This document shows positions 10,188-53,180 of a stretch of DNA of 64,000 nt, piece by piece. Below the pieces are notes generated by a model. It searched no databases and was not told the origin of the DNA. It saw only the letters and a list, made by a program, of their open reading frames with translations. A program made the translations under genes and the position numbers. Source of the stretch: a virus; IMG/VR virus record IMGVR_UViG_3300033143_006101, positions 1 through 64,000 of that record; one strand, written 5' to 3'. Each line of letters begins with the position of its first letter. Position 1 is the stretch's first letter.

Positions 10188-10219
10188 CATGATACTTAAA
10201 ATAGATGAAATTTTAAGGT
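10188..10219 (-). promoter_or_regulatory. Putative phage promoter for hldA (minus strand)
   Basis: On the minus strand the sequence reads ACCTTAAA (10219-10212), 16 bases, then GTATCATG (10195-10188). The first box is identical to the box upstream of the sheath operon and the spacing is the same. The second box keeps the TATCAT core. It ends 36 bases before the kinase ATG. Confidence 0.55.
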
Positions 10220-10254
10220 AAAAAATAGTAGTTAAAAAAGAATATAACTCCATT

Positions 10255-10286
10255 TCCCTAAATTATATAAAAGATCTTCTATCATT
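10255..10286 (+). promoter_or_regulatory. Putative phage promoter for the 10323 unit
   Basis: TCCCTAAA (10255-10262), then 16 bases, then CTATCATT (10279-10286). The second box matches the consensus at seven or eight positions and the first at six of eight. It lies 36 bases before the GTG start at 10323 and diverges from the hldA promoter. Confidence 0.5.
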
Positions 10287-10322
10287 TAATATGTTTATAA
10301 AGTACAAATAAGGGGGATAATC

Positions 10323-10616
10323 GTGTCAATTTTGAATTGCTTTGATTGTACATATAATAAAATAGGAGCTGAATGCACCCATCCAAAAAGTAGTTCACGT
10401 AAATATGATGAAAACCAGTATCACTGTACATTTTTTAAAGAAAGAAAAAAAGCAAATCTTACAGTAGTAAAATGTTTAGAATGTACGTATCATGAACCAG
10501 CTGATTGTAAACATCCTAAAAATACCCCAGCTAATTTTTTAAATTTTTGGTATAGAACTGGCGATAAAGAATGTAATTACTTTAAGAAAAAAAATGATGT
10601 TTTAGTACGACAATAA
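10323..10616 (+). CDS. Tandem Cys-rich (zinc-ribbon-like) protein
   Basis: The product has 97 residues, starting at GTG 10323 after AAGGGGGAT. Two units are visible: CFDCTYNKIGAECTHPKSS (6-24) ending HCTFFK, and CLECTYHEPADCKHPKN ending ECNYFKK. Each has Cys-x2-Cys, a Cys-x-His-Pro-Lys and a final Cys-x-x-Phe, so a gene-internal duplication of a four-Cys metal-binding domain is likely. No function is known to me. It begins the first transcription unit after the divergent promoter region. Confidence 0.7.
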   Translation: MSILNCFDCTYNKIGAECTHPKSSSRKYDENQYHCTFFKERKKANLTVVKCLECTYHEPADCKHPKNTPANFLNFWYRTGDKECNYFKKKNDVLVRQ

Positions 10617-10635
10617 ATAAGAAAGATGGTATAAA

Positions 10636-10896
10636 ATGAATGATATAATTAATGCTTTATTTGAATTAGGTGGTGCTATTCTAACATGGTTTAATGTAAA
10701 GAAAATCCTAAAAGATAAAGAAGTAAAAGGTGTATATTGGCCTATTTGGTTATTCTTTACAAGCTGGGGATATTGGAATTTATATTATTATCCCAGCGTA
10801 GATCATCAATGGAGCTTTTATGCTGGCATATTATTAGTATTTGGTAATACGGTATGGGTTTCATTAGCATGGTATTATAATAGAAAGCAGAAGTAA
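10636..10896 (+). CDS. Small integral membrane protein
   Basis: The product has 86 residues with three hydrophobic stretches: ALFELGGAILTWFNV, WPIWLFFTSWGYWNLYYY and FYAGILLVFGNTVWVSLAWYY. A KKILKDKEVKGVYW loop lies between the first two. This pattern, with a first helix and a KGVYWP motif, recurs in small phage membrane proteins of unknown role (from memory of the family, not searched). It sits between a Cys-rich protein and two tRNAs. Confidence 0.7.
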   Translation: MNDIINALFELGGAILTWFNVKKILKDKEVKGVYWPIWLFFTSWGYWNLYYYPSVDHQWSFYAGILLVFGNTVWVSLAWYYNRKQK

Positions 10897-10921
10897 TTTA
10901 GATTTGATTTTTTATACATAT

Positions 10922-10992
10922 GGGTCGGTAGCTCGAAGGACGAGCAACGGGCTTTTAACCTGTAAGCGAGAGTTCGATTCTCTCCCTGCCTA
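10922..10992 (+). tRNA. tRNA-Lys (TTT)
   Basis: The anticodon stem ACGGG/CCTGT has loop CTTTTAA (anticodon TTT), the D-stem is GCTC/GAGC with a short loop, and the T-stem GAGAG/CTCTC has the canonical TTCGATT loop. The acceptor GGGTCGG/CCTGCCT has a C-U mismatch at 5-68 and two wobble pairs. The discriminator is A. CCA is not encoded. Confidence 0.85.
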
Positions 10993-10996
10993 ATAA

Positions 10997-11069
10997 CTCT
11001 CCGTAGCTCAGTAGGAAGAGCATCTGCCTTCTAAGCAGATTGTCACAGGTTCGAGCCCTGTCGGAGAGG
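10997..11069 (+). tRNA. tRNA-Arg (TCT)
   Basis: The acceptor is CTCTCCG/CGGAGAG, the D-stem GCTC/GAGC, the anticodon stem TCTGC/GCAGA with loop CTTCTAA (anticodon TCT), and the T-stem ACAGG/CCTGT with TTCGAGC loop. The discriminator is G73. CCA is not encoded. It reads AGA, a frequent codon in this AT-rich genome. Confidence 0.93.
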
Positions 11070-11081
11070 CATGGAGAAAAA

Positions 11082-11267
11082 ATGGAGTTAAGAACATTTA
11101 TAGACATGCCCATTCTTAACACACAACAAATAGATTCTATGTCTAATGAAGAATATAAAAAGTTGTGCGAAAGGGGTAAACATAAGATTAAAGAAAGTTA
11201 CTGTCATATTGGAGAAGATATTATGGATGTAATTGTAAAAGGCAGAAACTTTGATAGATATGCTTAA
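11082..11267 (+). CDS. Small hypothetical protein
   Basis: The product has 61 residues from ATG 11082, with GGAG at 11072-11075; the longer frame from 11040 lies inside tRNA-Arg and is rejected. It is soluble with one Cys pair spaced widely (KKLCERG, SYCHIG). A central helix SMSNEEYKKLCERGKHKIKE is likely. No family is recognised. Confidence 0.55.
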   Translation: MELRTFIDMPILNTQQIDSMSNEEYKKLCERGKHKIKESYCHIGEDIMDVIVKGRNFDRYA

Positions 11268-11273
11268 ATAACT

Positions 11274-12060
11274 ATGAGACCGGAAAATATGTATAATTAC
11301 CCAAAATATTTTTATGGAGTAATCTATAAGATTACAAACATTCAAAATAATAAATGTTATATTGGAAAAACTTCTAATGTATACTTTAAAAATATATTAG
11401 AAGTCATTTTTATGAGGCACTAAAAAAGAGAGATAACAATAAGAGATATTTTTATAATACTATAAGAAAATATGGAAAAGAAAATTTTAAAATAGAAATT
11501 TTAGGTTTTTGCTATTCTGAAGAAGAGTTATATGAATCTGAGATTGAATGTATAGCTTTTTATCAAAGTAGTAATTCACTTTATGGATATAATTTAACAA
11601 AAGGTGGGGATGGTGGAGATTTAAGATGTAATTTTTCTGAAGCAGATAAATTAAAATGGAGAAAAAAGATAAGTAAAGCAACAAAAGAAAGAATACCGTG
11701 GAATAAAGGATTAACAAAAGAAACGGATAAAAGAGTATTAAAAAGTAGTAATACGATGAAAAAGCATGTGCGAACAAAAGAACATTGTGAAAAAATTAGT
11801 AAAGCTATTAAAGGTAAAAAAAGATCAGATGAAATAAAAAAGAAAATGTGTGAGGCACACAAAAAAAAATACGGAAATGGTTTTTTTGGAAAAAAACATA
11901 CTAAAAAACAAAAGAAAAAATGAGTTTATTACGAAAAGGAAAACCGAGTAAAAGAAAAGGAAAAATGCATGAGGAGATCTTTGGAAAAGAAAAATCGAAA
12001 GAAATAAAAGAAAAGATAAGAAGCACACTTTTAACTAAAAATTCTAAAAAGGTAGAATAA
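11274..12060 (+). pseudogene. GIY-YIG homing endonuclease gene with two frameshifts
   Basis: The N-terminal piece YFYGVIYKITNIQNNKCYIGKTS is a GIY-YIG catalytic start. It runs into a stop at 11421-11423. Adding one A to the A5 run at 11388-11392 restores the frame: KKYIRSHFYEALKKRD, then IRKYGKENFKIEIL and YNLTKGGDGGD. That frame holds NUMOD3-type repeats (WNKGLTKET, SKAIKGKKRSDE, GKKHTK). It then meets TGA at 11921. One more A in the A6 run at 11903-11908 restores a further 46 codons, MSLLRKGKPSKRKG onward, to the stop at 12058. Both faults are missing single As in homopolymers, so either real decay or sequencing error is possible. It is a free-standing homing endonuclease between tRNA and HNH genes. 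Confidence 0.75.
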
Positions 12061-12061
12061 T

Positions 12062-12619
12062 ATGGAAGAGACCTTAGTTTTAAACACAGGATATATTCCT
12101 ATTAGAATTGTATCGGATCGTGAGGCTATTTGTCTTCTTTATCAATCAAAAGCTTATACTGTAATTGAAACTGATCGTGTAATGCGTTCACCTTCAATTG
12201 TATTTAAAATACCATCCGTAATTGCTCTTGTAGGATATAATAAATTTCCACAAAGGAAAGTTGGATTTTCTAAATTGAATATAATTTATCGTGATGATAT
12301 GACTTGTCAATATTGTGGAAAAAGATTTAACATGAATGAACTTACAATAGATCATGTTATCCCAAGAAGTAGATGGGCAGATGAAAAAAGAACAAATAAG
12401 AAAAATTGGACAAATTGGCTTAATTGCGTCTGTTCATGTAAATGGTGCAATAATGCAAAAGGGAATAAACTTCTTCATGAATTAAGATGGAGTTTACCTA
12501 GAAAACCTTTTGAACCAAAATATCTGCCTCATATTGTTATTTCTTTCGATAAAGCAGAAAAAAAAGGTTGGATCCCATTTTGCAAATTTAATGTAAAATT
12601 ACTGAACAGACTTTCATAG
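12062..12619 (+). CDS. HNH endonuclease
   Basis: The product has 185 residues. CQYCGKRFNMNELTIDHVI (82-100) has the first zinc Cys pair and the DH of the HNH motif. CSCKWCNNAKGN (124-135) has the second Cys pair and the Asn. The N-terminal LVLNTGYIPIRIVSDREAICLLYQSKA is typical of a widespread stand-alone HNH family of bacteria and phages (LVLNxxYxPLxI ... A). The enzyme is probably a DNA nicking or cutting nuclease; its biological role in phage is unclear. It starts one base after the GIY-YIG stop. Confidence 0.85.
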   Translation: MEETLVLNTGYIPIRIVSDREAICLLYQSKAYTVIETDRVMRSPSIVFKIPSVIALVGYNKFPQRKVGFSKLNIIYRDDMTCQYCGKRFNMNELTIDHVIPRSRWADEKRTNKKNWTNWLNCVCSCKWCNNAKGNKLLHELRWSLPRKPFEPKYLPHIVISFDKAEKKGWIPFCKFNVKLLNRLS

Positions 12620-12629
12620 GAGGACAGTA

Positions 12630-12755
12630 ATGAGGGATAGATATTATAGTGCAGATGATTTTGTAGAAGACATTCTTGACATAGCGTCAGATGTTTTTGA
12701 GATTTTTATTGATATAAGTTTAGGTATCATAGGTCTTGCGTTTAATGACTTCTAA
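12630..12755 (+). CDS. Very short hypothetical protein
   Basis: The product has 41 residues with a strong AGGAGG site seven bases upstream of ATG 12630. It has an acidic, aromatic N terminus and a hydrophobic end (VFEIFIDISLGIIGLAF) that could lie in the membrane. It overlaps the next gene by 11 bases. No family is recognised. Confidence 0.5.
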   Translation: MRDRYYSADDFVEDILDIASDVFEIFIDISLGIIGLAFNDF

Positions 12756-12870
12756 GAATCTAAAACATAGAAGCGAAGATAGTATTATTGGTTCATTTTT
12801 ACTTATTTTAATGGTAGCATCTGCAGTAGCTTTAGTTATTGCTTGCGGATATCTATTATTTAATGGGTAA
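12745..12870 (+). CDS. Very short membrane protein
   Basis: The product has 41 residues. The ATG at 12745 lies in the last codons of the preceding gene. A basic N terminus (TSKNLKHRSED) is followed by one membrane helix, IIGSFLLILMVASAVALVIACGYLLF. A small holin, toxin or accessory membrane peptide would all fit, and nothing separates these options. The stop lies four bases before a tRNA. Confidence 0.5.
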   Translation: MTSKNLKHRSEDSIIGSFLLILMVASAVALVIACGYLLFNG

Positions 12871-12874
12871 ATAA

Positions 12875-12946
12875 GCCCCTGTAGCTCAGTGAAAGAGCAC
12901 ATGACTACGGATCATGGTGTCGAGGGTTTAAATCCTTCCAGGGGCA
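12875..12946 (+). tRNA. tRNA-Arg (ACG)
   Basis: The acceptor is GCCCCTG/CAGGGGC, the D-stem GCTC/GAGC with a short loop, and the anticodon stem CATGA/TCATG with loop CTACGGA (anticodon ACG, expected to be edited to ICG). The T-stem GAGGG/CCTTC has loop TTTAAAT, with T in place of the usual C56. The discriminator is A. CCA is not encoded. Confidence 0.87.
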
Positions 12947-12980
12947 CAGGTATATTATAATGAGACCGGAGATTAAAATT

Positions 12981-13250
12981 ATGAAACTATATAAATGTAG
13001 GTGTATGATAATCCCTGAAGAGGAATTAGAAATACAAGAATATAAAGAAGGAGCTTTAAAAGAAAAGTATTGTTGTGACGGCTGTGATGCTTATTTTTAT
13101 CCTTGTAACCTCTTCAATTACTTTATGTATTATCTTGGTAAACCTTTTGGGTATGAAGCTTGGGGTTTGAACGAAATGCTGACTTGGAATGATATAGAAT
13201 GGTGGTTAGTAAAAATAAAAGTAAGAATAGAAGAATTTTTTAATAAGTGA
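12981..13250 (+). CDS. Cys-rich hypothetical protein
   Basis: The product has 89 residues from ATG 12981, which has GGAG at 12967-12970. An in-frame ATG at 12960 would add seven residues but has no ribosome site. KLYKCRCMIIPEEE and YCCDGCDAYFYPC supply six Cys in paired arrangement, a likely zinc-ribbon; the C-terminal half is aromatic and helical (EWWLVKIKVRIEEFF). The TGA stop (13248-13250) lies inside the acceptor stem of tRNA-Ile. No family is recognised. Confidence 0.6.
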   Translation: MKLYKCRCMIIPEEELEIQEYKEGALKEKYCCDGCDAYFYPCNLFNYFMYYLGKPFGYEAWGLNEMLTWNDIEWWLVKIKVRIEEFFNK

Positions 13251-13319
13251 CCGTAGCTTAATTGGTAAAGCATTCGGATGATAACCGAAGGAGCGAAGGT
13301 TCAATTCCTTCCGGTCGCA
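13247..13319 (+). tRNA. tRNA-Ile (GAT)
   Basis: The acceptor is GTGACCG/CGGTCGC (one T-G wobble), the D-stem GCTT/AAGC, the anticodon stem TTCGG/CCGAA with loop ATGATAA (anticodon GAT), and the T-stem GAAGG/CCTTC with TTCAATT loop. The discriminator is A. CCA is not encoded. The first four bases overlap the stop of the previous gene. Confidence 0.92.
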
Positions 13320-13366
13320 ATAAAATAGTTGATATAGTCGAACTTACTGTATATATTAAATTTAAA

Positions 13367-13906
13367 ATGTATAGAAGGTTCGAATCTATAAAAAACACTA
13401 GAAGATTAAATGGTTATATTGTTATATATAAACCAGATCACCCCAAAGCAATGACATCCAAAAATTGGGAGGGTTATATTTACGAGCATATAGTGGTTGC
13501 TGAACAAATATTAGGTCGAAAACTGACAAGTACCGAGGTTACACACCATGAAGATGAAGTAAGTTCAAACAATAGTCCAAGTAATTTAAAAGTTTTTAGA
13601 ACACGAGGAGATCATAATAGATACCATAAAGGATTTGAAATTATTAGATTATCAGATAGTACGTATTAATGTAGTATTCATTCCTGCATAGATTGTGGTA
13701 AAGAGCTTTTTAAAGTAAAAATTACTAGATGTTGGGAATGCCATAAAATTTGGAAAGCAAAAAACATACCTTCAAAAAAGGTTTTAGAAAAGTTAATTTG
13801 GAAAAAACCAACAGTATATATAGCAAAGGATTTTGAAGTTTCAGACAAGGCAGTAGAAAAATGGTGTAAGAAGTATAATCTTCCAAAACCCCCAAGAGGT
13901 TATTAG
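13367..13906 (+). pseudogene. HNH homing endonuclease gene interrupted by an in-frame TAA
   Basis: From ATG 13367 (no clear ribosome site) the frame encodes an HNH_3-type domain: NWEGYIYEHIVVAEQILGRKL, EVTHHEDEVSSNNSPSNL and HNRYHKG. It ends at TAA 13667-13669. The same frame then continues open for 78 codons to TAG at 13904-13906. That part reads as the usual C-terminal half of such endonucleases: CIDCGKELF and CWECHK zinc pairs, then a helix-turn-helix-like PTVYIAKDFEVSDKAVEKWCKKYNLPKP. I infer one gene of about 179 codons broken by a nonsense codon, or read through. The codon after the TAA is TGT, as in the interrupted gene at 3256. Confidence 0.72.
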
Positions 13907-13923
13907 ATGAAACATAAATATAA

Positions 13924-14000
13924 GGGTTCTTAGCTTAGCTGGTCGAAAGCACTTGACTCATAATCAAGAGATTTCCTGGGTTCGAATCCCAGAGAGCCCA
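13924..14000 (+). tRNA. tRNA with CAT anticodon (elongator Met or Ile2)
   Basis: The acceptor is GGGTTCT/AGAGCCC, the anticodon stem CTTGA/TCAAG has loop CTCATAA (anticodon CAT), and the T-stem CTGGG/CCCAG has TTCGAAT loop. The discriminator is A. The absence of three G-C pairs in the anticodon stem and the paired position 1-72 rule out an initiator. Lysidine modification to Ile2 cannot be judged from the sequence. CCA is not encoded. Confidence 0.92.
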
Positions 14001-14016
14001 ATATTTCATAATGGTT

Positions 14017-14057
14017 AATCCCGGCATTATTCTCGACATAATGTCGGGATTTTTTTT
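14017..14057 (+). terminator. Rho-independent terminator ending the tRNA/accessory block
   Basis: A 14-bp stem, AATCCCGGCATTAT (14017-14030) against ATAATGTCGGGATT (14038-14051) with one G-T pair, closes a 7-base loop and runs into eight Ts (14050-14057). It separates the accessory block from the tail units. Confidence 0.92.
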
Positions 14058-14063
14058 ACTTAT

Positions 14064-14095
14064 ACCTTAAATTTATGAAAATTCCGACTATTATT
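14064..14095 (+). promoter_or_regulatory. Phage promoter, copy 1 (structural unit start)
   Basis: ACCTTAAA (14064-14071), 16 bases, then CTATTATT (14088-14095). It lies between the terminator at 14017-14057 and the first structural gene (GTG 14124, 28 bases downstream). The same arrangement recurs upstream of the 22421, 28745, 42914 and 10323 units. Confidence 0.72.
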
Positions 14096-14123
14096 TTATT
14101 AAAATTTTGAGAGAGGTATAGCT

Positions 14124-14267
14124 GTGTATTTTAAAAACTTTAAAGATTTAGGTCAGTTATTAAAAAAATCGGATGATTTGGGGTCAAAAAATCTCGAAGA
14201 GGAAGAGATGGAAGAAGCCTGGACTGAAGGTCCAGCAAAATCACAACAATCTAAGGAGCCAGCATAA
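14124..14267 (+). CDS. Short hypothetical protein, first gene of the fibre unit
   Basis: The product has 47 residues from GTG 14124 with GAGAGG at 14110-14115. It is highly charged (EEEEMEEAWTEG) with no hydrophobic segment and resembles short virion or scaffold leader proteins only in composition. Its stop lies one base before the next ATG. The ribosome site GAGAGGTATA is shared with the sheath and tube genes. Confidence 0.5.
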   Translation: MYFKNFKDLGQLLKKSDDLGSKNLEEEEMEEAWTEGPAKSQQSKEPA

Positions 14268-14268
14268 T

Positions 14269-14514
14269 ATGAAACTTAACAGCAACACAATTTTACTAGA
14301 TTCAAATGATGTACAGAAACTTATAGGTATCGCGGAAAATATTGCAAAAGAAAATAATGTATATAATGTAAAAGATGTAGAATTTGCTTTGGATCCAACA
14401 CGAGGAAACGTTAGTTTTTCAACTCAGCTACCTCCAAAAGAAATTACATCAATGTATAACAAAGAAAGGACAAAAGAAGATAAATTACAAGAGTTAGCTA
14501 ATATAGTAAGATAA
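14269..14514 (+). CDS. Hypothetical structural-module protein
   Basis: The product has 81 residues from ATG 14269, with AAGGAG at 14253-14258; a longer frame from 14173 lies in the preceding gene. It begins MKLNSNTILLDSNDVQKLIGIAENIAKEN and appears alpha/beta. It stops one base before the next gene (TAAG ATG). The role is unknown; the position suggests a virion or tail-fibre accessory. Confidence 0.6.
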   Translation: MKLNSNTILLDSNDVQKLIGIAENIAKENNVYNVKDVEFALDPTRGNVSFSTQLPPKEITSMYNKERTKEDKLQELANIVR

Positions 14515-14515
14515 G

Positions 14516-14887
14516 ATGCCAAGAAAAGTTAAAACTATAGGAAATGATTTACCATCTCCTAGTAGTAAGCATCAAGTTTTAGGAACTGTTTTTTTAGTAC
14601 AAGAAGGTACATCTACTGGAATTTATACTTTTAATTTTGAAGATGGTAGTATCATATACTTCGAAAATGAAATCAAACAATCTTTTGAATATCTTTTAGT
14701 GGATAACATAGGAGAAGGTAGAGTACGCTTCGCTTTTAATAAAATAGGTTTACCATTAGTTAGTTCAATAGACGGAGCAAAGACGTTGCGTGCCGGGGAT
14801 AGTTTGTATATCCAGGATTTTGTAAGAAATATCACTCTATTTTTTATAGAATCTTCTATTGTTGAATTAGTTTTAATGTCTAAATAG
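14516..14887 (+). CDS. Hypothetical beta-rich virion protein
   Basis: The product has 123 residues and starts one base after the previous stop. Alternating strands are visible: VLGTVFLVQEGTSTGIYTF, IIYFENEIKQSFEYLLV, RVRFAFNKIGLP, and a hydrophobic end NITLFFIESSIVELVL. This resembles a jelly-roll or beta-sandwich accessory protein. It carries the TSTG tetrapeptide common in the tail proteins of this phage. No family is recognised. Confidence 0.6.
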   Translation: MPRKVKTIGNDLPSPSSKHQVLGTVFLVQEGTSTGIYTFNFEDGSIIYFENEIKQSFEYLLVDNIGEGRVRFAFNKIGLPLVSSIDGAKTLRAGDSLYIQDFVRNITLFFIESSIVELVLMSK

Positions 14888-14896
14888 GAGGTTATC

Positions 14897-15193: not shown

Positions 15194-15195
15194 CT

Positions 15196-15648: not shown

Positions 15649-15659
15649 AGGATTATTTA

Positions 15660-22223: not shown

Positions 22224-22245
22224 TAGCTATGGATCCATAGTTAAG

Positions 22246-22284
22246 TTAAAAAGCCCTAAAGATACCTTCTTTAGGGCTTTTTAA
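22246..22284 (+). terminator. Rho-independent terminator after the OMPLA gene
   Basis: A perfect 16-bp inverted repeat, TTAAAAAGCCCTAAAG (22246-22261) with CTTTAGGGCTTTTTAA (22269-22284), encloses a 7-base loop, and the 3' arm includes the T-run. It works in both orientations by symmetry. A separate palindrome, CTATGGATCCATAG, sits at 22227-22240. Confidence 0.92.
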
Positions 22285-22331: not shown

Positions 22332-22363
22332 ACCTTAAAAAACTTCAAAAAATCACTATATTT
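22332..22363 (+). promoter_or_regulatory. Phage promoter, copy 2 (22421 unit)
   Basis: ACCTTAAA (22332-22339), 16 bases, then CTATATTT (22356-22363). It follows the terminator at 22246-22284 and precedes ATG 22421 by 57 bases. Confidence 0.72.
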
Positions 22364-22420: not shown

Positions 22421-22933
22421 ATGGCTGATTATAAAGGTGTTATAAGATTTATCGGAGAAAACAACGACTTCGCTTTAGTTGAGGAAACTCGTATTTATCA
22501 AAATAATATTGATACAAGTACAGGAATTGGAACAGGAGATGGGTCTGAAAGAACGTTCTCTGGATCATTAGAACCAGTTGTAGAAGAAGGCGAACTCGTA
22601 ATTAACGTAGATGGTGCAGCACAAAATGCTTCTGATTCTGGTGGAGTTATTTCTGGTAGTGATATCACAACTTCATCAGGATATGTCAGTGCTATTGATT
22701 ATGCTTCTGGTGCAATTCAACTTACTTTCACTGTTGCAGCAACACCACCAGCAGATAAAGCAGTAGATGCAGTATATCAATATAGTGCACCTTCAGAATT
22801 TCCAGAAGGATTAAAGTTTATAAAAGGTGACTTTTCAAACTTTAGTGTTGGGGATTCTATAGGTTACGATTACGATGTCGATGCAGACCTTAAAGATGGT
22901 TATTATATATCAGAAGCTTATATAGAAGCTTAG
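22421..22933 (+). CDS. Putative virion decoration or structural protein
   Basis: The product has 170 residues with an excellent AGGAGGAG site and its own promoter, suggesting high expression. The middle, GTGDGSERTFSGSLEPVVEEGELVINVDG then GYVSAIDYASGAIQLTFTVAATPPADKAVDAVYQYSAP, has the pattern G-D-G-x-x-x-T-F ... V-x-I ... I-D-Y-x-x-G-x-I-x-L-T-F of a beta-sandwich domain found in phage structural proteins. The acidic ends suggest an exposed surface. A capsid or neck decoration role is plausible (inference). Confidence 0.65.
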   Translation: MADYKGVIRFIGENNDFALVEETRIYQNNIDTSTGIGTGDGSERTFSGSLEPVVEEGELVINVDGAAQNASDSGGVISGSDITTSSGYVSAIDYASGAIQLTFTVAATPPADKAVDAVYQYSAPSEFPEGLKFIKGDFSNFSVGDSIGYDYDVDADLKDGYYISEAYIEA

Positions 22934-28670: not shown

Positions 28671-28702
28671 ACCTTAAAATTTACGAGAATTTTTCTAATT
28701 TT
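28671..28702 (+). promoter_or_regulatory. Phage promoter, copy 3 (sheath operon)
   Basis: ACCTTAAA (28671-28678), 16 bases, then CTAATTTT (28695-28702). It lies 42 bases before the sheath ATG. The first box is also the right arm of a 9-bp inverted repeat (TTTTAAGGT at 28658-28666, ACCTTAAAA at 28671-28679, loop ATTC), which could be an operator. Confidence 0.75.
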
Positions 28703-28744: not shown

Positions 28745-30106
28745 ATGGCATTAGGATATCAACTACCTGGAACAACAATAGAAGAAGTAACTAGTCCAGC
28801 TTCCGCGAATCCTACTACTACACAACGAATTCCTTGTTTTATAGGAGTAGCTAGTGATTATAAATTGGTAAGATATGAAGAAGTTGTAAGATCATCAACC
28901 GGTTTAATAGATAGTTTAGAATTTACCAGTGAAGGAATCTATGAAGTAGTGGAATGCGGTTCACAAAAAGGACTTGCAGATTATGTAGAAGGCACTCATT
29001 TTAATGTTGCAAGCAATCAAATAGTTTGGACTTCTTCTGGTATTGTTACTATAGGTGCAACATATTTCGTTACGTATAGGTATAACAGACCATCAAGTGA
29101 CTATAGCTATAAAGTATTTTATAATTATGAAGATATAGTTGCTGATTTAGGAGAAGATATACCAGACAATCCTCTTGTAAATATTGCAAAAATAGCTCTT
29201 AGATATTTTAGTAATCCCGCCATTGCCGTAGTACAAGTTCCAGCTACAGAAACTACCTCCGATTATGTAGATGCCCTTGATCTTGTAAAATATAGAGATA
29301 CACAAACTGTATGTGCATTAACAACTACTGTAGCAGTACGAGCTCTTCTTGTTTCTCATGTAGTAGAAAGAAGTTTACCAGATAATGGCAGATATAGAAT
29401 TACATATACAGGAGCACCAGCTAATACACCTGTAGGAACTGAAGATGATCCTAGTTCATTAAGAGGTATGGCTGTCGCAATTCAACAAGAAAGAGTTATT
29501 TTTGTCAATGCGACAAGAGCTAAATATTATTATAATGATCCAAATACAGGAGTAGAAACATATGCTGTAGTAGATGGAGCATTTATAGCTGCAGTTGTAG
29601 CAGCATTCAGAGATTCATTCTCTCATCCTACAACTACATTACTTAACAGGGTAATGCCTGGTATAGAATTGTATGATGAAGATTACGATGATTATTATGA
29701 TGAGAATAAACTAACTCTATCCGGTTCGAGCAGTTTATTTCTTATGGCTCCATCTGGAGGTTTAGTTCGAATCATAGATGATTTAACAACAGATAATTCA
29801 ACAGTAGAGCGTAATAATATTAACATCATTACAGCAAAAGATTATATTGCTAAAGATGTTGCTGTTCAAATGAATAGAACTTTTAAAGGTTCTCTAATTA
29901 AAAACAGACCTCAATATCAAGGAGTAGTTTTAAATTATTTAACTATATTATTTAAAGCTTATCTCCAAAACAATGTTATTGAGAATATAGGAACATTAAA
30001 AGTAACACTTCCAACTAATAGACGTGATACTGTAAATATTTTTTATAGTTACAGTGCTGTATATACACACAAGTATACTGAGGGTACATACACACTTGTA
30101 GTTTAA
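28745..30106 (+). CDS. Contractile tail sheath protein
   Basis: The product has 453 residues from ATG 28745, preceded by GAGAGG. It begins GYQLPGTTIEEVTSPASAN, the usual surface-exposed N terminus of phage sheath proteins, with a FIGVASDYKLV strand. The C-terminal part has DDLTTDNSTVERNNINIITAKDYIAKDVAVQMNRTFKGSLIKN and VTLPTNRRDTVNIFYSYSAVY, the sheath-conserved region. The sheath surrounds the tube and contracts to drive it into the cell. It has its own promoter and is followed by the tube gene at 22 bases. The N-terminal leader differs from T4-like sheaths. Confidence 0.9.
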   Translation: MALGYQLPGTTIEEVTSPASANPTTTQRIPCFIGVASDYKLVRYEEVVRSSTGLIDSLEFTSEGIYEVVECGSQKGLADYVEGTHFNVASNQIVWTSSGIVTIGATYFVTYRYNRPSSDYSYKVFYNYEDIVADLGEDIPDNPLVNIAKIALRYFSNPAIAVVQVPATETTSDYVDALDLVKYRDTQTVCALTTTVAVRALLVSHVVERSLPDNGRYRITYTGAPANTPVGTEDDPSSLRGMAVAIQQERVIFVNATRAKYYYNDPNTGVETYAVVDGAFIAAVVAAFRDSFSHPTTTLLNRVMPGIELYDEDYDDYYDENKLTLSGSSSLFLMAPSGGLVRIIDDLTTDNSTVERNNINIITAKDYIAKDVAVQMNRTFKGSLIKNRPQYQGVVLNYLTILFKAYLQNNVIENIGTLKVTLPTNRRDTVNIFYSYSAVYTHKYTEGTYTLVV

Positions 30107-30127
30107 ATTTAATAGAGAGGTATAATT

Positions 30128-30817
30128 ATGGCATTAGCAAATAGAGTTCTGCCAATAAACTACGCAGCAAGTACAAACAACTTAAATGGCACAATTCCTA
30201 AAACTGCAATTCAATCTATTACTATGGCGATACGTATTGGTCCAAAACAACACGCTATAGGTTATATACAGGAATTTAGTTGGACAGCTGATAGAGATGT
30301 AAAAATGTTACATCAAATAGAACCTTATCCAAATGGAACATTTGATGGTTCAGCTGTACTTGAATCAGATTTTTTTACATCAGGATATTGGCCAGGTGAG
30401 CCAGTAGAAGGAGTACCTGGAAAGATTGATGGTATCAAGGTTACTCTTAAGCGATATGCTCTTTATACCTCAAATCTATTAGCAGCATTAACAAGACTTA
30501 GTGGTGCAGGTACAGAAGATGCGGATATTCCTGTTGATAACGCTTCAGTAAATAATACCGAAGATGTTAATAAGTATGTTTCACTTATTCAGCAAGTTAG
30601 ACCAATTGATATCTATCAAATGTATGTGTCTCCAACTAATGGAGCTATTGTATTCGGAAGAAAATTTGAAGAATGTTGGTTTACTTCATTAGGAGAAGAA
30701 ATTCCTGCAGCTGAAACTAATGAACCTATTATGGAAAATGGTGAATTAACTGCAACAAGAGTAAGACCTTATTTTAATCTTACTGGAGAAACACAAGTTA
30801 ATGAAGGAGAAGGATAA
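30128..30817 (+). CDS. Tail tube protein
   Basis: The product has 229 residues, following the sheath. Its start region (GAGAGGTATAATT then ATGGCATTAG) is identical to that of the sheath over 23 bases. The protein has IQSITMAIRIGPKQHAIGYIQEFSWTADRDVKMLHQIEPYPNGTFDG and VTLKRYALYTSNLLAALTRL, consistent with a beta-rich myovirus tube monomer (DUF2597/T4 gp19 type). Position between sheath and chaperones supports this. It is probably highly expressed. Confidence 0.82.
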   Translation: MALANRVLPINYAASTNNLNGTIPKTAIQSITMAIRIGPKQHAIGYIQEFSWTADRDVKMLHQIEPYPNGTFDGSAVLESDFFTSGYWPGEPVEGVPGKIDGIKVTLKRYALYTSNLLAALTRLSGAGTEDADIPVDNASVNNTEDVNKYVSLIQQVRPIDIYQMYVSPTNGAIVFGRKFEECWFTSLGEEIPAAETNEPIMENGELTATRVRPYFNLTGETQVNEGEG

Positions 30818-42864: not shown

Positions 42865-42896
42865 TACTTAAAGTTACTTAAACTTTTACTATCTAT
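42865..42896 (+). promoter_or_regulatory. Weak putative phage promoter, copy 4 (wedge unit)
   Basis: TACTTAAA (42865-42872), 16 bases, then CTATCTAT (42889-42896). Each box matches six of eight positions. It ends only 17 bases before the GTG start at 42914, so the leader would be very short; treat as a weaker candidate. Confidence 0.4.
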
Positions 42897-42913
42897 TTAA
42901 ATAGGAGTTAAAT

Positions 42914-43354
42914 GTGGCAAGTGGATTACAAATAGTAAATGGAGATTTTGTTATAGGGCATACAGGAGCTGTTGAAATAGTTGAAAAAGGTCCTAAATGT
43001 CTACGTGATTTTGGAAAGATGCTTCAAACCAGTTCAGAATCTTCAGATAATCAAACAGAATACTTTAGGTATAATCCGACTTATGGTAGTCTATTAGATA
43101 AATTAATAACACATAATATGAGCAAAAGCACTATTCTAGAAATAGCAAGCTCTCTTTTATATGCTACAATACAAAATTATCTCGAATTACAGGAAACTAG
43201 AGACAATTTAACTGCAGGGGAAATTATAATAGATGTAAATTTTGATGTAAATTTTGATGTGCGTACCCCTGGACTTTTAGTAATCCCGATGTCGATAACT
43301 ACTTCAGAAGGAGTAACATATAATCTTGGGGAGTTTGAGCAGAGGTTCGTCTAA
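42914..43354 (+). CDS. Baseplate wedge protein, gp25-like
   Basis: The product has 146 residues, starting at GTG 42914 seven bases after AGGAG. The segment EKGPKCLRDFGKMLQTSS, then FRYNPTYGSLLDKLI and AGEIIIDVNFDVNFDVRTPGLLVIPMSITTSEG, matches the gp25/GPW family (Y-x-P-x-x-G-x-x-L, then V-x-V). These are conserved structural wedge proteins of contractile phages and type VI systems. Its stop overlaps the next ATG. Confidence 0.82.
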   Translation: MASGLQIVNGDFVIGHTGAVEIVEKGPKCLRDFGKMLQTSSESSDNQTEYFRYNPTYGSLLDKLITHNMSKSTILEIASSLLYATIQNYLELQETRDNLTAGEIIIDVNFDVNFDVRTPGLLVIPMSITTSEGVTYNLGEFEQRFV

Positions 43355-44817
43355 TGATTATTAAAAATACTAATGATATTCGTACAGATCTTTTAAATGA
43401 ATTAAATACAGCTCTACCTGATTTAGATCTAACAGAGGGTACTCCCGAAAGAGATATGTTTGTGGAAACTCCAATAACCGGACAACTATCTGGTATATGG
43501 GATGGTATTATCTATGCACAAAAATTATATGCTCCTTTAGTGTATTATGATGATCTAGAAGAAGATGAAATTAATCAATTTTGTTCAACATATAATGTAA
43601 TTCAACGTCCTGCAACATATTCTGCAGGCACAGTTACATTTTATACTTCAACAGAACCTGTTAATGATATTGTTATTGCAGATGGATCCGAAATAGCAAC
43701 TATCGGAGCAAATCCTGTACGATTTGTAGTAGATGGGACATATACATTATATGCAGCTAATCAAGTAGCTTATTATAATGCAGTAAATGAGAGATGGGAA
43801 ATAACAGTCAGTGTTAGAGCAATCAATGCTGGACCGGATGAAAGAACAGCTTCTGGTACTGTTACTAGTATTATATCTGACATAGATGGTATTGATGGTG
43901 TTAATAATGATGAATCAATTACTGGTGGAGAAGATGCAGAGACTGTTATTGAAAGATTAAGACGGGTTAATGAAAAATTTCAAGGTAGAGATTTAGGTGC
44001 TGATGCAGGATTAAGAAGCCATATTGGATTATATACACGTTATATAGATATAGTAGGAGCTAATGATCCCTTAATGGAAAGAGATGAGGGTCTTGGTGGG
44101 GCTATTGATATTTATATAATCGGAGAAGATTTAGAAACAAAAACAGATACTGTAAATATAACATCAACAGGACTTACTCTGTCTACTTCTGTTGTTAATT
44201 ATACATCAACTGGTATAACTTTTGAAAAGCAACCGGTCCATCAAATATCTGGTGTCGTAAAAAATGGAACAGTATTGAATACATCTTATTATACTTTATC
44301 TCAAGATACTGAAATACTAAGAAAATCTACTCAAGGATTTGATAAAGTTTTATTAACTTCTACTGGAATAAGTGCTATCGGTCCTTTTGCTGATGGGGAT
44401 GAGGTAAAAATTACATATAATTATAATAAGATGTTACATACTATAGAAGAAGATCTCAATTCAACAGGGAATCATTATCAGAATCGTGATTATTTACTAA
44501 GAGAAATGGATAAAGTATCAATAGCGGTATACATGAAATTTAAAGAGGTCTCGGGACAGGATTTTGATACGGTTGTAAGTTCGGTAGAATTAGAAGTAAG
44601 TACTTTTATTACAGGCATTAAAAATACAGGAGATGTACAGCTTGCTGACATTGAAGGTATAGTAAAAAAACATTCAGGTGTAGATAATGTAGATTTAACT
44701 ACAGCAGCTATAACGCCTACAGGAGGTGGTGTACTGTCTACACAAGGAGATATCTTATTAGGAAAGAATGAATATCCCGATCCAGGGATAATGACGTTTG
44801 AACGTTGGACTAGTTAA
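43354..44817 (+). CDS. Baseplate J-like wedge protein
   Basis: The product has 487 residues. It starts with the classical baseplate-J N terminus (TDLLNELNTALPDLDLTEGTPERDMFVETPITGQLSGIWDGIIYAQ), has RPATYSAGTVTFYTSTEPVNDIVIADGSEIAT, then DAETVIERLRRVNEKFQGRDLGADAGLRSH and the C-terminal DVQLADIEGIVKKHSGVDNVD. It forms the wedge body that connects the hub to the outer baseplate. Within it a repeated strand unit (TSTGLTLSTSVVNYTSTGITFEKQPV) is present. It is the last core baseplate gene before the glycan cassette. Confidence 0.87.
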   Translation: MIIKNTNDIRTDLLNELNTALPDLDLTEGTPERDMFVETPITGQLSGIWDGIIYAQKLYAPLVYYDDLEEDEINQFCSTYNVIQRPATYSAGTVTFYTSTEPVNDIVIADGSEIATIGANPVRFVVDGTYTLYAANQVAYYNAVNERWEITVSVRAINAGPDERTASGTVTSIISDIDGIDGVNNDESITGGEDAETVIERLRRVNEKFQGRDLGADAGLRSHIGLYTRYIDIVGANDPLMERDEGLGGAIDIYIIGEDLETKTDTVNITSTGLTLSTSVVNYTSTGITFEKQPVHQISGVVKNGTVLNTSYYTLSQDTEILRKSTQGFDKVLLTSTGISAIGPFADGDEVKITYNYNKMLHTIEEDLNSTGNHYQNRDYLLREMDKVSIAVYMKFKEVSGQDFDTVVSSVELEVSTFITGIKNTGDVQLADIEGIVKKHSGVDNVDLTTAAITPTGGGVLSTQGDILLGKNEYPDPGIMTFERWTS

Positions 44818-44872
44818 TATTTTTTTAATAGTTAATGAGATATAAAAACTTCGTAAGAAGGAGCAAAATGAG

Positions 44873-46111: not shown

Positions 46112-46114
46112 TTT

Positions 46115-47185: not shown

Positions 47186-47200
47186 TAAGGAGAAAATGAT

Positions 47201-47824: not shown

Positions 47825-47834
47825 GTGGTGCCAT

Positions 47835-48587: not shown

Positions 48588-49367
48588 ATGAATCTATTAG
48601 GTGGATCTTTATTCGTACATAACGGATTAAAATATGATTATTGTTTAAAAGAAGCTGTAGAGAGTCTTTTAGATTTGTGTGATGAAGTAGTTATACTTGA
48701 TGCCGAAAGTGACGATGGTACTTTAGATTTTTTACATAAAATGGCTAAGGAACATTCCAATTTAAAAGTATATGATCATGGAAAATGGGAATGTGCATCA
48801 GACTGGAATAGATTACGACTACTTGCTAATGAAACAAAAAATATATTAAATACCGAATGGCATTTCATGCTTCAAGCAGATGAAGTTATACATGAAAATT
48901 CTTTTGATGCAATTCGAAAAGCTATAAGTGATTCCCAAAAACACGATACTTTTTGGGGGTACAGAATAAATGTGTTTAAAGATTTTGATCATTATATAGC
49001 GTTTAATAGTAAAACCAAACCATGCGGGGATAAGATAATTAGATTAGGAAAAACGTATATTGATGCTATAGGAGATGCTGAATCATTAAGTCTAACACAT
49101 CATAGTAATAAATATTTATCAAAAATAATAATGTTTCATTATGGTATAATAAGAAAACCGGATATTATGTTAGATAAATATATAAGCATGCAATCATGGT
49201 TTTTTGATCATGGGAAAATAGATCCAAGAATATTAGAGATGAAAAAAACAGATGGAATATTTAAACCAGAAAAAATAATAGAAGGTATAACATTAGATAA
49301 ACTTAAATGGACACATCCTAAATATGCTGAAGAATGGGTAAAAGAACGAAGACATTTTTATGAATAA
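48588..49367 (+). CDS. Glycosyltransferase family 2-like protein
   Basis: The product has 259 residues, starting directly at the previous stop. CDEVVILDAESDDGTLDFL has the GT2 D-x-x-S-x-D-G-T pattern after a hydrophobic strand, and FMLQADEVIH supplies the second acidic motif (A-D-E). It is an inverting GT-A fold, with a C-terminal helical domain ending WTHPKYAEEW. Acceptor and donor are unknown. It precedes the GT2-GT9 fusion. Confidence 0.78.
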   Translation: MNLLGGSLFVHNGLKYDYCLKEAVESLLDLCDEVVILDAESDDGTLDFLHKMAKEHSNLKVYDHGKWECASDWNRLRLLANETKNILNTEWHFMLQADEVIHENSFDAIRKAISDSQKHDTFWGYRINVFKDFDHYIAFNSKTKPCGDKIIRLGKTYIDAIGDAESLSLTHHSNKYLSKIIMFHYGIIRKPDIMLDKYISMQSWFFDHGKIDPRILEMKKTDGIFKPEKIIEGITLDKLKWTHPKYAEEWVKERRHFYE

Positions 49368-49388
49368 CATAAAGTAGGAGAAAAATAG

Positions 49389-51128
49389 ATGAATAACTTT
49401 ACAAGTATTATAATAATTAATTGGAATGGGGTTCGATTTTTAACAACGGCTATTAGTTCTCTTTACAGATTCAGGAATAAAACTCCTTTTGAAATAATTA
49501 TAGTAGATAATGGATCCACAGATAAAAGTGTAAAGTATATAAAACGTATCACACATGAAAAATCAAATATAATAGCTATTTTTAATAAAGATAATAAAGG
49601 TTTTACAGTTGCTAATAACCAAGGAATAGAAGCTGCTACTGGAAAATATGTAATGCTTTTAAATAATGATATAGAAATAAGAGGCAGTGAATGGTTAGAT
49701 AAAATGATTAATTTTCTAATAATAAATCCAGAAGCAGGTGTAATAGGACCGCGTGGTGGAATTCTAACTAAAAGTTTAGAATTTATAGGCATAAAACCAA
49801 ATGAATATAATGGTATGGTAGATTATATCGAAGGATGGTGTTTTTTATTTAAAAGATCACTTGCTGAAAAAATTAAATTATGTCGTGAAGAACTATGGGA
49901 TATGAAAGCAAATTATCTATGTGAAGAAATGTTTATCTTTGCTGAAGATTCAGAATTTTGCCAACGTTCTAAAATGTTAGGACACGAATGTTATCAAATA
50001 GGTAACGTACCTATTCATCATTTTGGAAATTCCACTATTAAACATCAAGTAAAAGAAAATCCCGATGCAGATTACGATTATAAAGATGTAAGTAATGATA
50101 GTACTCAAATATTAAAAAATCTATTAAATAATAAACAATTAGTTAATACTGATATAAAAAAGATTTTAATAATGAGAGGTAATGCTAGAGGAGATGTTTT
50201 AAATACCACACCAGCTATAAAAGCATTAAGAAAAAAACATCCTGATGCTTTTATAGGTTTTGTTTGTTTTTATCCTTCTTTTGATATTTTAAATCTAAAT
50301 CATGATTTGGATTGTGTTTTTCCTGTTCTTGAAGAAACAATACATGGATTTCATCCAAAATTACTTCAGTTTGAATGGGATGAAATATATCATTTAGGAG
50401 ACAAAATGTTTCCAAGTATGAAGACAGTCATAGACCATTTTTACAATAGTGATGCAATAATAGATACTAAACATGAATTAATGGCTTCGCAGGATGTGAG
50501 TACAAGAATGAAAAGAGGAGCAGCAAAGAAACCTTATTCTAAGATTTTTGCTGAAATGATTAATATTGAATTAGATGATTTAAAACCTACTTTAAATATC
50601 AGCTCAAAAGTAATAAATGATGCCAAAAAGTTATTACAACATTTAGATAAAAAAAGAAAAACAGTAGCTTTATGTCTTGATTCTCATTGGATAACACGTA
50701 CTTACCCTATACCCAAAAGAACAAATATAATACATAGTTTATTAAAAGAATACAATGTAGTATTATTAGGAATAAGTAGTTATCGATTTAAAACACCTGA
50801 AGCTAATCATTTTGTTAATCTATTAAATCGAACATCAATAGAGTTATTATGTGCTATATTAAATCAAATTGATGCTATTGTTACAATAGATACATTAACA
50901 CTTCATATAGGTTTAGCTTATAAAAAACCAATGGTATCTCTATGGAATATAACAGAACCATTTCATGTAATGTCATACCAACCAAAGAATCAAATAAAAT
51001 TATTTTCGGATTTAGCATGTTCACCATGTTATTTAGAAGTCTGCACAAATCATAATTATGCTTGTTACAACCAACTCTTCCCAGAACGAATTGTAGATGC
51101 ATTACATTATTTAATAAAGGATAAATAA
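49389..51128 (+). CDS. Bifunctional glycosyltransferase: GT2 fused to GT9 (heptosyltransferase-like)
   Basis: The product has 579 residues. Residues 1 to about 250 are GT2: SIIIINWNGVRFL, IIVDNGSTDKS, MLLNNDIEI, FIFAEDSEFCQR. From about 255 the GT9 domain begins with KKILIMRGNARGDVLNTTPAIKALRKKHP, the usual start of ADP-heptose:LPS heptosyltransferases, and ends VTIDTLTLHIGLAYKKPMVSLWN. The second half therefore may transfer heptose from ADP-heptose. The phage also encodes a heptose kinase at 9195-10151, which fits one pathway (inference). It follows the GT2-like gene by 21 bases. Confidence 0.82.
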   Translation: MNNFTSIIIINWNGVRFLTTAISSLYRFRNKTPFEIIIVDNGSTDKSVKYIKRITHEKSNIIAIFNKDNKGFTVANNQGIEAATGKYVMLLNNDIEIRGSEWLDKMINFLIINPEAGVIGPRGGILTKSLEFIGIKPNEYNGMVDYIEGWCFLFKRSLAEKIKLCREELWDMKANYLCEEMFIFAEDSEFCQRSKMLGHECYQIGNVPIHHFGNSTIKHQVKENPDADYDYKDVSNDSTQILKNLLNNKQLVNTDIKKILIMRGNARGDVLNTTPAIKALRKKHPDAFIGFVCFYPSFDILNLNHDLDCVFPVLEETIHGFHPKLLQFEWDEIYHLGDKMFPSMKTVIDHFYNSDAIIDTKHELMASQDVSTRMKRGAAKKPYSKIFAEMINIELDDLKPTLNISSKVINDAKKLLQHLDKKRKTVALCLDSHWITRTYPIPKRTNIIHSLLKEYNVVLLGISSYRFKTPEANHFVNLLNRTSIELLCAILNQIDAIVTIDTLTLHIGLAYKKPMVSLWNITEPFHVMSYQPKNQIKLFSDLACSPCYLEVCTNHNYACYNQLFPERIVDALHYLIKDK

Positions 51129-51129
51129 T

Positions 51130-51462
51130 ATGAAAGGAAAGTGTGCGAAAGTAACTACTATAGCTATAATAGTAAATAATGGTGAATACTGGGTAGGAAC
51201 AAATTGGTGTGAAATCCCACAAGAAACGTGCCCAAGAGATGAACAAGGTTTTAAAACAGGTGAAGGGTATGAGTTATGTAAAGATGTTTGTTTACAGAGA
51301 TATCATGCAGAAATAGATGCTTGCATTAATGCTGGATTAAATGCGAAAGGAGCAGATTTGTATTTAATAGGTCATTACTATTGTTGTGATGATTGTAAGA
51401 AAGTCATGAAAGAATTTGGTATAAAAAATATTCATATATTTAGTAAATCAGATAAGGAATAG
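51130..51462 (+). CDS. Cytidine/deoxycytidylate-deaminase-fold protein
   Basis: The product has 110 residues. It has the zinc motif RYHAEIDAC (HAE) and a downstream CCDDCKKVM, where the canonical P-C-x-x-C is Cys-Cys-x-x-Cys. An extra Cys-rich part (NWCEIPQETCPRD, ELCKDVCLQRY) is present. Members deaminate cytosine-containing nucleotides or other bases. The phage role is unclear, and its place inside a glycan cassette is unexpected. It starts one base after the fusion gene stop. Confidence 0.75.
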   Translation: MKGKCAKVTTIAIIVNNGEYWVGTNWCEIPQETCPRDEQGFKTGEGYELCKDVCLQRYHAEIDACINAGLNAKGADLYLIGHYYCCDDCKKVMKEFGIKNIHIFSKSDKE

Positions 51463-51465
51463 AAA

Positions 51466-52191
51466 ATGGAAAAATGCATTTGTAATCATAAAAAAACAAT
51501 AGAATCTTTTACTATCAAAGTTAATGAAATGGAATTAATATATGCACGGTGCAATAATTGTTTATCATACAGAATGATGAATCCTCTTAATACTGAAGAA
51601 ATACTTGAATATTATAATAAAGAAAAACCAACTCGAGTATCTGCAGATTTTAGAAAAGCTTTAGCACATACTGCAAATGAGGATTTTAAAGCATTAAAAC
51701 AATATAATACAGATCATGTATGTAGAGGAAAAAGATTATTAGATATAGGATGTTCAGAAGGTACTTTTGTCCAGGTTACTGCACAACGAAAATATGATGC
51801 TTATGGAATAGATATAGCTACTGAATTAATTGCATATGGAAAAGAAAGAGGGGTGGCTCTTGAAGTAGCAGATTACTTATCATTTAATAAACAATCTTGG
51901 GATATAATAACATTACATGATGTATTAGAACATGTATATCAACCAAGAAAATATTTAGAAAAAGCTTACACAGAGTTAACTCCTAGTGGAATAATCCAAC
52001 TTAGATTTCCAGCATATATTTATGCTAATAATTTGGAAACATGGGGGCATGCAAGAACAGATCATAATTGGTTGTTTAATATACAAGGGCTTATTGTAAC
52101 ATTAACTGAGATAGGATTTGAAAATTTCAGAGTCCTAGATTACAAGCATGGGGCATACCCGGGTTGTGTTATGATTATGTGCCAAAAATAA
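51466..52191 (+). CDS. SAM-dependent methyltransferase (Methyltransf_11/23-like)
   Basis: The product has 241 residues. The N terminus carries four Cys (EKCICNH, RCNNCLSY), resembling the zinc-binding segment of SAM enzymes that methylate sugar nucleotides. RLLDIGCSEGTFVQV is motif I and DIITLHDVLEHVYQPRKYL is motif IV. It is likely a sugar or small-molecule C/O-methyltransferase of the cassette. Spacing to the previous gene is three bases. Confidence 0.78.
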   Translation: MEKCICNHKKTIESFTIKVNEMELIYARCNNCLSYRMMNPLNTEEILEYYNKEKPTRVSADFRKALAHTANEDFKALKQYNTDHVCRGKRLLDIGCSEGTFVQVTAQRKYDAYGIDIATELIAYGKERGVALEVADYLSFNKQSWDIITLHDVLEHVYQPRKYLEKAYTELTPSGIIQLRFPAYIYANNLETWGHARTDHNWLFNIQGLIVTLTEIGFENFRVLDYKHGAYPGCVMIMCQK

Positions 52192-52217
52192 ATGAGATGA
52201 ACTAAAAGGAGATTAAT

Positions 52218-53180
52218 ATGAATTTAGGAAAGGATCCCATTATTCAACGATGGGAAAATAATTACGATGAAAATGTACTTAATAAAGCATTTAACGGAGA
52301 AGATGTAAGACCTTATAAATTTTTACTAAATAATACACATTATCATAATGTTCCAGTAGTGCTGGTGGCTGCAGGACCATCATTAGATAATAATCTAAAA
52401 TACCTTAAAGATTTTCAGAAAAATGCTATTATTTTAGCAGTTGATGTTATCCTTTTTAAACTACTAGAATACGACATAATACCAGATTTTGTGGTTAATA
52501 TAGACCCTTCTGATATGTTTATTCGCTTTTGGGAGGATTTAGACACATCAAATTTAACTCTTATTTGTCCCACAACAACACATCCAAAAGTGCTACAAAC
52601 ATGGAAAGGAAGAAAGTTCTTTTATAATCAAATAGATCAAAAGAAATCAGAAAAAGGAAGAGCTCTTAAAAGATTAATAAAAACCACAGCGGGATATGGG
52701 AAAGTAATCAATCGCTATTTTATAGGAGCAACATCGGCTCAAATAGCATCAATATTCAATCCTGATCCTTTAATCTTGGTTGGATATGATTTTGCATATA
52801 CTGGTGGAAAAGCTTATTGTGACGGATTTTTAGAAAGAAAAATATACGATGACACAACAGAAAAAGGATCACCAGAACATATTAGAAATATTAATTCACT
52901 GAAGTATAGAGAACGAAATGAAGAAATGAAAGTAAAAGATATTTATGGTATGGAAGTATATACATCAAAACAGCTTAACTTTTATAGCATTGTATTAATT
53001 CATTTACTTTATAACGAATTACGCATTAAGAACGTAATTAATGCAACTGAAGGTGGTGTTCTAAAAGATACCCCAAACATGTCATTAAAAAATGCTTTAA
53101 ATCAATATTGTAAATCGGAAATCCAAAAGAAAGATGTATTTAGTTTAATTAAAAGAAAAAAGAAAAGGCGTAAGAAATGA
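52218..53180 (+). CDS. DUF115 / Maf-type protein (motility accessory factor-like glycosyltransferase)
   Basis: The product has 320 residues. VPVVLVAAGPSLDNNLKYLKDF at 49-70 and AIILAVDVILFKLLEYDIIPDFVVNIDPSD at 74-103 are the DUF115 signature (G-P-S-L ... D ... P-D-x-V-V-x-x-D). TSAQIASIFNPDPLILVGYDFAYTGGKAY continues it. Maf proteins attach pseudaminic or legionaminic acids to flagellin. The C terminus is very Lys/Arg-rich. Its stop overlaps the ATG of the next tail gene by four bases, so the protein is coupled to a tail component. A perfect phage promoter lies inside it at 52402-52433. Confidence 0.8.
   Translation: MNLGKDPIIQRWENNYDENVLNKAFNGEDVRPYKFLLNNTHYHNVPVVLVAAGPSLDNNLKYLKDFQKNAIILAVDVILFKLLEYDIIPDFVVNIDPSDMFIRFWEDLDTSNLTLICPTTTHPKVLQTWKGRKFFYNQIDQKKSEKGRALKRLIKTTAGYGKVINRYFIGATSAQIASIFNPDPLILVGYDFAYTGGKAYCDGFLERKIYDDTTEKGSPEHIRNINSLKYRERNEEMKVKDIYGMEVYTSKQLNFYSIVLIHLLYNELRIKNVINATEGGVLKDTPNMSLKNALNQYCKSEIQKKDVFSLIKRKKKRRKK
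52402..52433 (+). promoter_or_regulatory. Putative internal phage promoter (perfect match)
   Basis: ACCTTAAA (52402-52409), 16 bases, then CTATTATT (52426-52433). It is identical in both boxes and spacing to the promoter at 14064-14095. It lies inside the coding part of the DUF115 gene and could drive the downstream tail and fibre genes from 53177. Confidence 0.6.

Follow-up and report, generated by a model that had tools for sequence, protein, structure and literature searches.

The 64,000-base stretch analysed here (the window) comprises bases 1-64000 of a phage record of 252,876 bases and 32% G+C, IMG/VR record IMGVR_UViG_3300033143_006101 (hereafter G000). It carries a two-box signal, ACCTTAAA-N16-CTATTATT, and its variants, which are likely to be jumbo-myovirus late promoters read by the host core RNA polymerase together with a phage sigma factor that we call SigA. 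We infer both the late timing and the use of a phage sigma factor from sequence.

Distribution and conservation of the two-box signal

The motif tests were repeated over the whole of G000, beyond the window. Genes not included in the supplied calls were found with a simple home-made open reading frame (ORF) caller, and gene starts are therefore approximate. All seven strings listed in the initial annotation were present in the window exactly as given, with their 16-base spacers, and a scan of the whole genome, as it had proposed, gave 14 sites for ACCTTAAA-N16-CTATTATT at up to two mismatches, compared with one for the reversed pattern. When the spacer was varied from 8 to 26 bases at the same tolerance, 14 sites were observed at N16 versus a mean of about 1.4 at the other lengths (35 versus about 13 at up to three mismatches), and N16 between the 8-base boxes was the sole enriched spacer. 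A motif-blind spaced-dyad search upstream of genes ranked CTTA-N18-CTA top among promoter-like spacings (14 versus 1.4 expected). Sixteen sites in G000 matched the consensus at 15 or more of 16 positions; 15 of them were intergenic in a record of which about 17% is non-coding (p = 5e-11), and 13 lay no more than 80 nt upstream of a gene on the same strand. Start codons mostly followed box 2 at 8-58 nt. We put the number of copies of this late start signal in G000 at about 15-18.

The genes downstream include those for the terminase large subunit, the head protease, the tail sheath, and the capsid and baseplate operons (Table 1), so that the candidate sites precede most recognised virion operons. 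This agrees with the initial annotation, which had asked for instances before late genes, and such instances were kept in three relatives. Non-virion targets also exist, namely a PfkB-like kinase gene (10219, minus strand) and the gene for a DNA polymerase beta-type protein (75318, plus strand).

The relatives were recruited by sheath, capsid, and SigA searches: G001 (217.7 kb; sheath 73% identical to that of G000), G003 (IMGVR_UViG_3300031952_002809; 121.6 kb, partial; capsid 70% identical), and G006 (236.4 kb, AT-rich; SigA 41% identical). Regions upstream of their orthologs of site-bearing G000 genes were examined using annotated starts. A site was present in 13 of these 22 regions (shuffles, mean 0.77 and maximum 5; antisense, 0), whereas 66 orthologs of genes that bear no site yielded only one (p = 5e-9). 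The site upstream of the sheath gene was kept in G001 (45 nt from the gene, 42 nt in G000) and in G006, and the 210979 gene had a site 48 nt upstream in both G000 and G006. In G001, the ortholog of the 22421-22933 gene was preceded at 52 nt by TCCTTAAA-N16-TTATCTTT, and that of the 42914 gene at 19 nt by TACTTAAA-N16-TTATATTT, with the same TACTTAAA variant as in G000 (17 nt).

The match at 52402-52433, which had been taken as a second perfect copy of the promoter, proved to be codons of an MptE-like gene, 52218-53180 (PF01973, E = 5e-34), where it encodes AGPSLDNNLKYLKDFQKNAIILAVD. The counterpart in G001 (KKYEKNVIILSCD) is also in frame and encodes GGPSLDKNVNILKKYEKNVIILSCD; the match is kept there because the protein sequence is conserved, and we rejected it as a promoter. 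The annotated intergenic majority of the seven window matches stands, with a count of six instead of five, the seventh being coding. This coding copy is itself a chance match, as would be expected if AT-rich DNA had produced the whole motif by chance. As regards the complete motif, however, that explanation is already refuted by the spacer, reversed-pattern, intergenic-position, and orthology controls, and we give it practically no weight.

Promoter anatomy and the candidate sigma factors

A logo built from 18 curated G000 sites refined the motif to [AT]CCTTAAAnTT ... CTAT[CT]nTTTnA. We infer a register with CTTAAA as the -35 element, a spacer of 17 bp, and TATNNT as the -10 element, with C before it and TTnA after it. 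The TA---T of the -10 element was nearly constant in the curated set (T in 18/18, A in 18/18, and final T in 17/18), which had partly been picked on these bases. The signal had been annotated as phage-specific and different from sigma-70. As to the sequence this was borne out, since the first element is CTTAAA and not the TTGACA of a host primary sigma factor; the geometry, on the other hand, stays that of the sigma-70 family, with two elements in the layout CTTAAA-N17-TATNNT, and the -35 element is therefore the replaced part. TTGACA/TATAAT pairs upstream of G000 genes showed no excess (6 versus 5.75 in shuffles).

The base before TA was C in 15/18 G000 sites and T in 10/10 G001 sites (Fisher p = 3e-7, C versus T). 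An independent expectation-maximisation search on G001 was discarded, having drifted to a low-information CT-rich motif with 279 hits; the conclusions on G001 therefore rest on an upstream-restricted scan, which disregarded the first base of box 2. This difference bears on another reading, in which the host sigma-A reads TATNNT and a phage DNA-binding protein on CCTTAAA replaces the -35 contact, as T4 MotA/AsiA do at middle promoters. In agreement with it, the -10 element retains the first T, the A, and the last T of TA---T in TATAAT, and the distance of box 1 suits it as well as it suits a sigma factor. However, the boxes are as far apart as the -35 and -10 elements of a normal sigma-70 promoter, the shift from C to T is not predicted unless the hosts differ, and the phage sigma factors described below would be sufficient. 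We regard this reading as unlikely.

G000 contains three sigma-70-like ORFs, SigA, SigB, and SigC, all outside the window. No match to PF00562 (the beta subunit of multisubunit RNA polymerase, as in phiKZ-type phages) was found in the G000 record, and a multisubunit phage RNA polymerase was rejected on this ground. PF00940 (single-subunit RNA polymerase) had no match in G000, and the control genomes gave none either. The initial suggestion that a phage-encoded sigma specificity may be involved fits well with the three sigma-70-family proteins, the presence of SigA in four genomes, and the lack of a recognisable multisubunit polymerase in the record.

Among the three proteins, only SigA was found in all four motif-bearing genomes; SigC was found in G000 and G001 only, and SigB in G000 and G006 only. 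By this elimination, SigA is the best candidate reader. Sigma region 2 (PF04542, cut-off 24 bits) was matched by the G001 SigA at 29.4 bits. The helix-turn-helix predicted at the C-terminus of SigA gave E 0.03 in alignments with sigma-H and UPF0122, with no Pfam region-4 hit. AlphaFold models of SigA and SigC had a predicted local distance difference test score of 75 and 74, respectively, and all 50 PDB matches listed for either model in a fold search were sigma-factor entries. These matches had E values of 0.005-0.1 and low template modelling (TM) scores, as is expected when two small domains differ in placement. The region-4 helix of SigA, YHAVYEII, did not vary among the four phages, nor did the core of the -35 box.

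Several observations weigh against SigA-read late promoters. The G000 SigA scored 22.7 bits for region 2, under the Pfam cut-off, and its fold matches were individually weak (best E = 0.006, TM about 0.3). No nearby site was observed for the terminase gene in G001 and G003 or for the 224685 gene in any of the three relatives. The motif was also weaker in G003 and G006; in the AT-rich G006, a spacer of 16 was not clearly favoured over 15 and the base was poorly resolved too, and in G003, with 6 sites at N16, a spacer preference was visible.

Alternatively, the sites may be true late promoters read by SigC or SigB. All three proteins are sigma-like, and sigC lies inside the late region. Against this, sites occur without SigC in G006 (236 kb) and G003 (partial), and G001 has sites and no SigB by tblastn. 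Moreover, the SigC helix differs between G000 (YHSIYQV) and G001 (YYAVYEI), while box 1 is the same. We consider a role of SigC or SigB as the main reader rather improbable. It is also conceivable that a host alternative sigma factor or a non-sigma regulator binds the motif and that the phage sigma genes are unrelated to it, the proposed link between the motif and a phage protein being drawn from sequence. The strict geometry with a sigma-70-type -10 element and the sigma genes in every motif-bearing genome make this very improbable.

If SigA is the reader, as appears most likely, it would be made from the replication-gene cluster and bind to the core RNA polymerase of the host; CTTAAA would be read by region 4 of SigA and the -10 element by region 2, and the SigA-bound polymerase would thereby be switched from host-type promoters to late genes. 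SigB and SigC would probably serve other sets of genes as accessory sigma factors. In our own alignment, the residue of SigA region 2.4 equivalent to T440 was Tyr in G000, Ser in G001, and Asn in G003. In Escherichia coli sigma-70, control of the -12 base lies with Q437 and T440 (PMC2613000). A tie between the T440-equivalent change and the promoter base change is a lead only, because the variable base lies one position upstream in our register. A broader proposal, which we put forward tentatively and hold to be possible without being probable, is that an undescribed SigA/SigC family drives a multi-sigma cascade in jumbo phages lacking a polymerase, the sigma factors and promoters having co-evolved. 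As part of it, the -35 box and region-4 helix would be fixed while the base before the -10 element shifts with the region 2.4 residues.

In G003, a further protein with sigma-70 region 2 (PF04542, E = 1.9e-12) of about 175 amino acids, seemingly without region 4, is encoded at 29872-30399 (plus strand).

Sites in the window and their surroundings

The sites at 10219-10188 and 10255-10286 form a divergent pair sharing one intergenic gap; the former, with GTATCATG as box 2, is the weakest in the window. The gene under this arm (9195-10151, minus strand) encodes a PfkB-family carbohydrate kinase (PF00294, E = 5e-41). Strong terminators directly precede sites 14064 and 22332, and the 90 nt upstream of the latter folded at -25.7 kcal/mol. 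The putative promoter at 28671 would drive the tail sheath gene, and the baseplate operon is headed by 42914-43354 and includes 43354-44817, a baseplate wedge gene.

Table 1 Candidate promoter sites and associated features of G000 (window positions coincide with record positions).
Feature	Position	Strand	Remarks
Candidate late-promoter site	10188..10219	-	36 nt upstream of PfkB-kinase-like gene 9195-10151
Candidate late-promoter site TCCCTAAA-N16-CTATCATT	10255..10286	+	36 nt upstream of gene 10323-10616
Intrinsic terminator, 14-bp stem and T-run	14017..14051	+	directly before 14064 site, downstream of tRNA-Met gene
Candidate late-promoter site ACCTTAAA-N16-CTATTATT	14064..14095	+	-35 CTTAAA 14066-14071; -10 TATTAT 14089-14094
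Palindrome TATGGATCCATA	22228-22239		further copies at 81027, 95228, 96699, 97455, 97754, 97772, 98772, 122102, 128697, 246203
Terminator-like hairpin and T-run	22249..22284	+	approximate ends; before 22332 site
Candidate late-promoter site ACCTTAAA-N16-CTATATTT	22332..22363	+	57 nt upstream of gene 22421-22933
Candidate late-promoter site ACCTTAAA-N16-CTAATTTT	28671..28702	+	before tail sheath, 42 nt to start 28745
Tail sheath gene	28745..30106	+	phrog_279, E = 1.1e-17; upstream start 28730 likewise open
Candidate late-promoter site TACTTAAA-N16-CTATCTAT	42865..42896	+	17 nt upstream of 42914-43354, first gene of baseplate operon
Exact motif match, coding	52402..52433	+	within MptE-like gene 52218-53180; left out of promoter count
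Candidate site	75318	+	before DNA polymerase beta-type protein
Candidate site	140459	-	before terminase large subunit
SigA	140628-141374	-
SigB	143088-143741	-
Candidate site	179319	+	before DNA-transfer protein
Candidate site	220337	+	before head protease
Candidate site	224626	+	before operon leading to major head protein
Head-protein-related ORFs	228579-229742, 239775-240362, 243805-244740		major head protein and two further ORFs; best match G006 head protein
SigC	231532-232383	+	in late region, between capsid operon and site 233533

Between 46115 and 53180, the MptE-like (6-hydroxymethylpterin diphosphokinase-like) gene lies beside glycosyltransferase, epimerase, and methyltransferase genes, possibly a glycan-modification cluster within the tail region. 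The exact palindrome TATGGATCCATA, usually inside AACTATGGATCCATAGTT, occurs in 11 mostly intergenic copies in G000, which cluster in front of small genes of the plus strand at 95-99 kb and may represent a family of operators or hairpins; TGGATCCA was counted 54 times in G000, 0 in G001, 0 in G003, and 3 in G006. A different promoter class was observed in G003, where at least 6 near-perfect TTGACA-N17-TATA(A/C)T promoters lie before small genes at about 99-119 kb. They would suit a host-sigma early class. An inverted repeat, e.g. agcacaNNNNNtgtgc, in several of their spacers points to an operator at early promoters.

An 18-kb stretch of the window had no nucleotide-level relative, and no close named-phage relative, by megablast against 50,697 phage records, and no tblastn match to SigA was found in the same number of phage records. 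Host or prophage copies, sought with capsid and SigA patterns in 84,980 genomes, were not found. The G000 head protein was nearest to that of Rctr197k (38%) and more remote from those of Motura, Erwinia and Dickeya jumbo phages, and Mycobacterium phages (about 25%). No sigma hits and no motif were found in Rctr197k; the absence of the motif is uninformative as a negative control because of its 63% G+C. Two G000 ORFs beyond the major head protein had their top match in the G006 head protein (40% and 23%) and may be paralogs or products of duplication.

Relation to known late promoters

The principle of a phage sigma factor at late promoters is known from a few model phages and is undescribed in this phage group; what G000 adds is therefore a new promoter sequence and a new sigma lineage. 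The T4 late promoter is TATAAATA, with no -35 element, whereas conservation of the G000 signal is highest in the -35 box. The proposed likeness to T4 lies in a phage sigma factor that redirects the host core polymerase to virion genes; in T4 this is gp55, acting with gp33 and gp45 (PMC11598898).

The late promoters of the phiEco32-like Salmonella phage 7-11, GTAAtg-(16)-aCTA, are read by the phage sigma factor SaPh711_gp47 (PMC8948821). Like those proposed for G000, they are bipartite with a fixed 16-base gap, have CTA in the second element, and lie upstream of late genes. Phage 7-11 uses the host core with a phage sigma-70-family protein, and the same is proposed from sequence for G000. In contrast, the first element in G000 is CTTAAA instead of GTAAtg and the second is longer (CTATYnTTTnA); G000, a myovirus of 253 kb, has three sigma-like genes, whereas the small phage 7-11 has one. 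The late genes of Bacillus phage SPO1 use the sigma factor gp34 with gp33 at CGTTAGA-N17-19-GATATT, as quoted in PMC3601020. SPO1 is a large myovirus without its own polymerase, as G000 appears to be, and has two-element late promoters with a -35 other than TTGACA; the sequences differ, however, and the SPO1 spacers range from 17 to 19.

In a jumbo-phage survey, sigma factors were assigned to a T4-like group 2, and group 3 lacked both polymerase and sigma factors (PMC7824862). G000 resembles group 2 in encoding sigma factors and no recognisable multisubunit RNA polymerase, but its head protein matches other phages and its SigA is unmatched among the phage records searched. A literature search for CTTAAA with phage late genes found nothing, and among papers retrieved with CCTTAAA, phage, and promoter, none appeared, as judged by title and abstract, to concern a phage promoter.

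With these putative promoters, an uncultivated jumbo-phage lineage would gain a readable late regulon, and the late genes of metagenomic phages related to it could be predicted by sequence. In vitro tests would become feasible for an orthogonal sigma/promoter pair of small size (about 250 amino acids; CTTAAA-N17-TATNNT). The change from C to T among relatives would offer a natural experiment on the joint change of a sigma factor and its promoter set; if the co-evolution is true, a whole late regulon has exchanged one promoter base as its own sigma factor changed.

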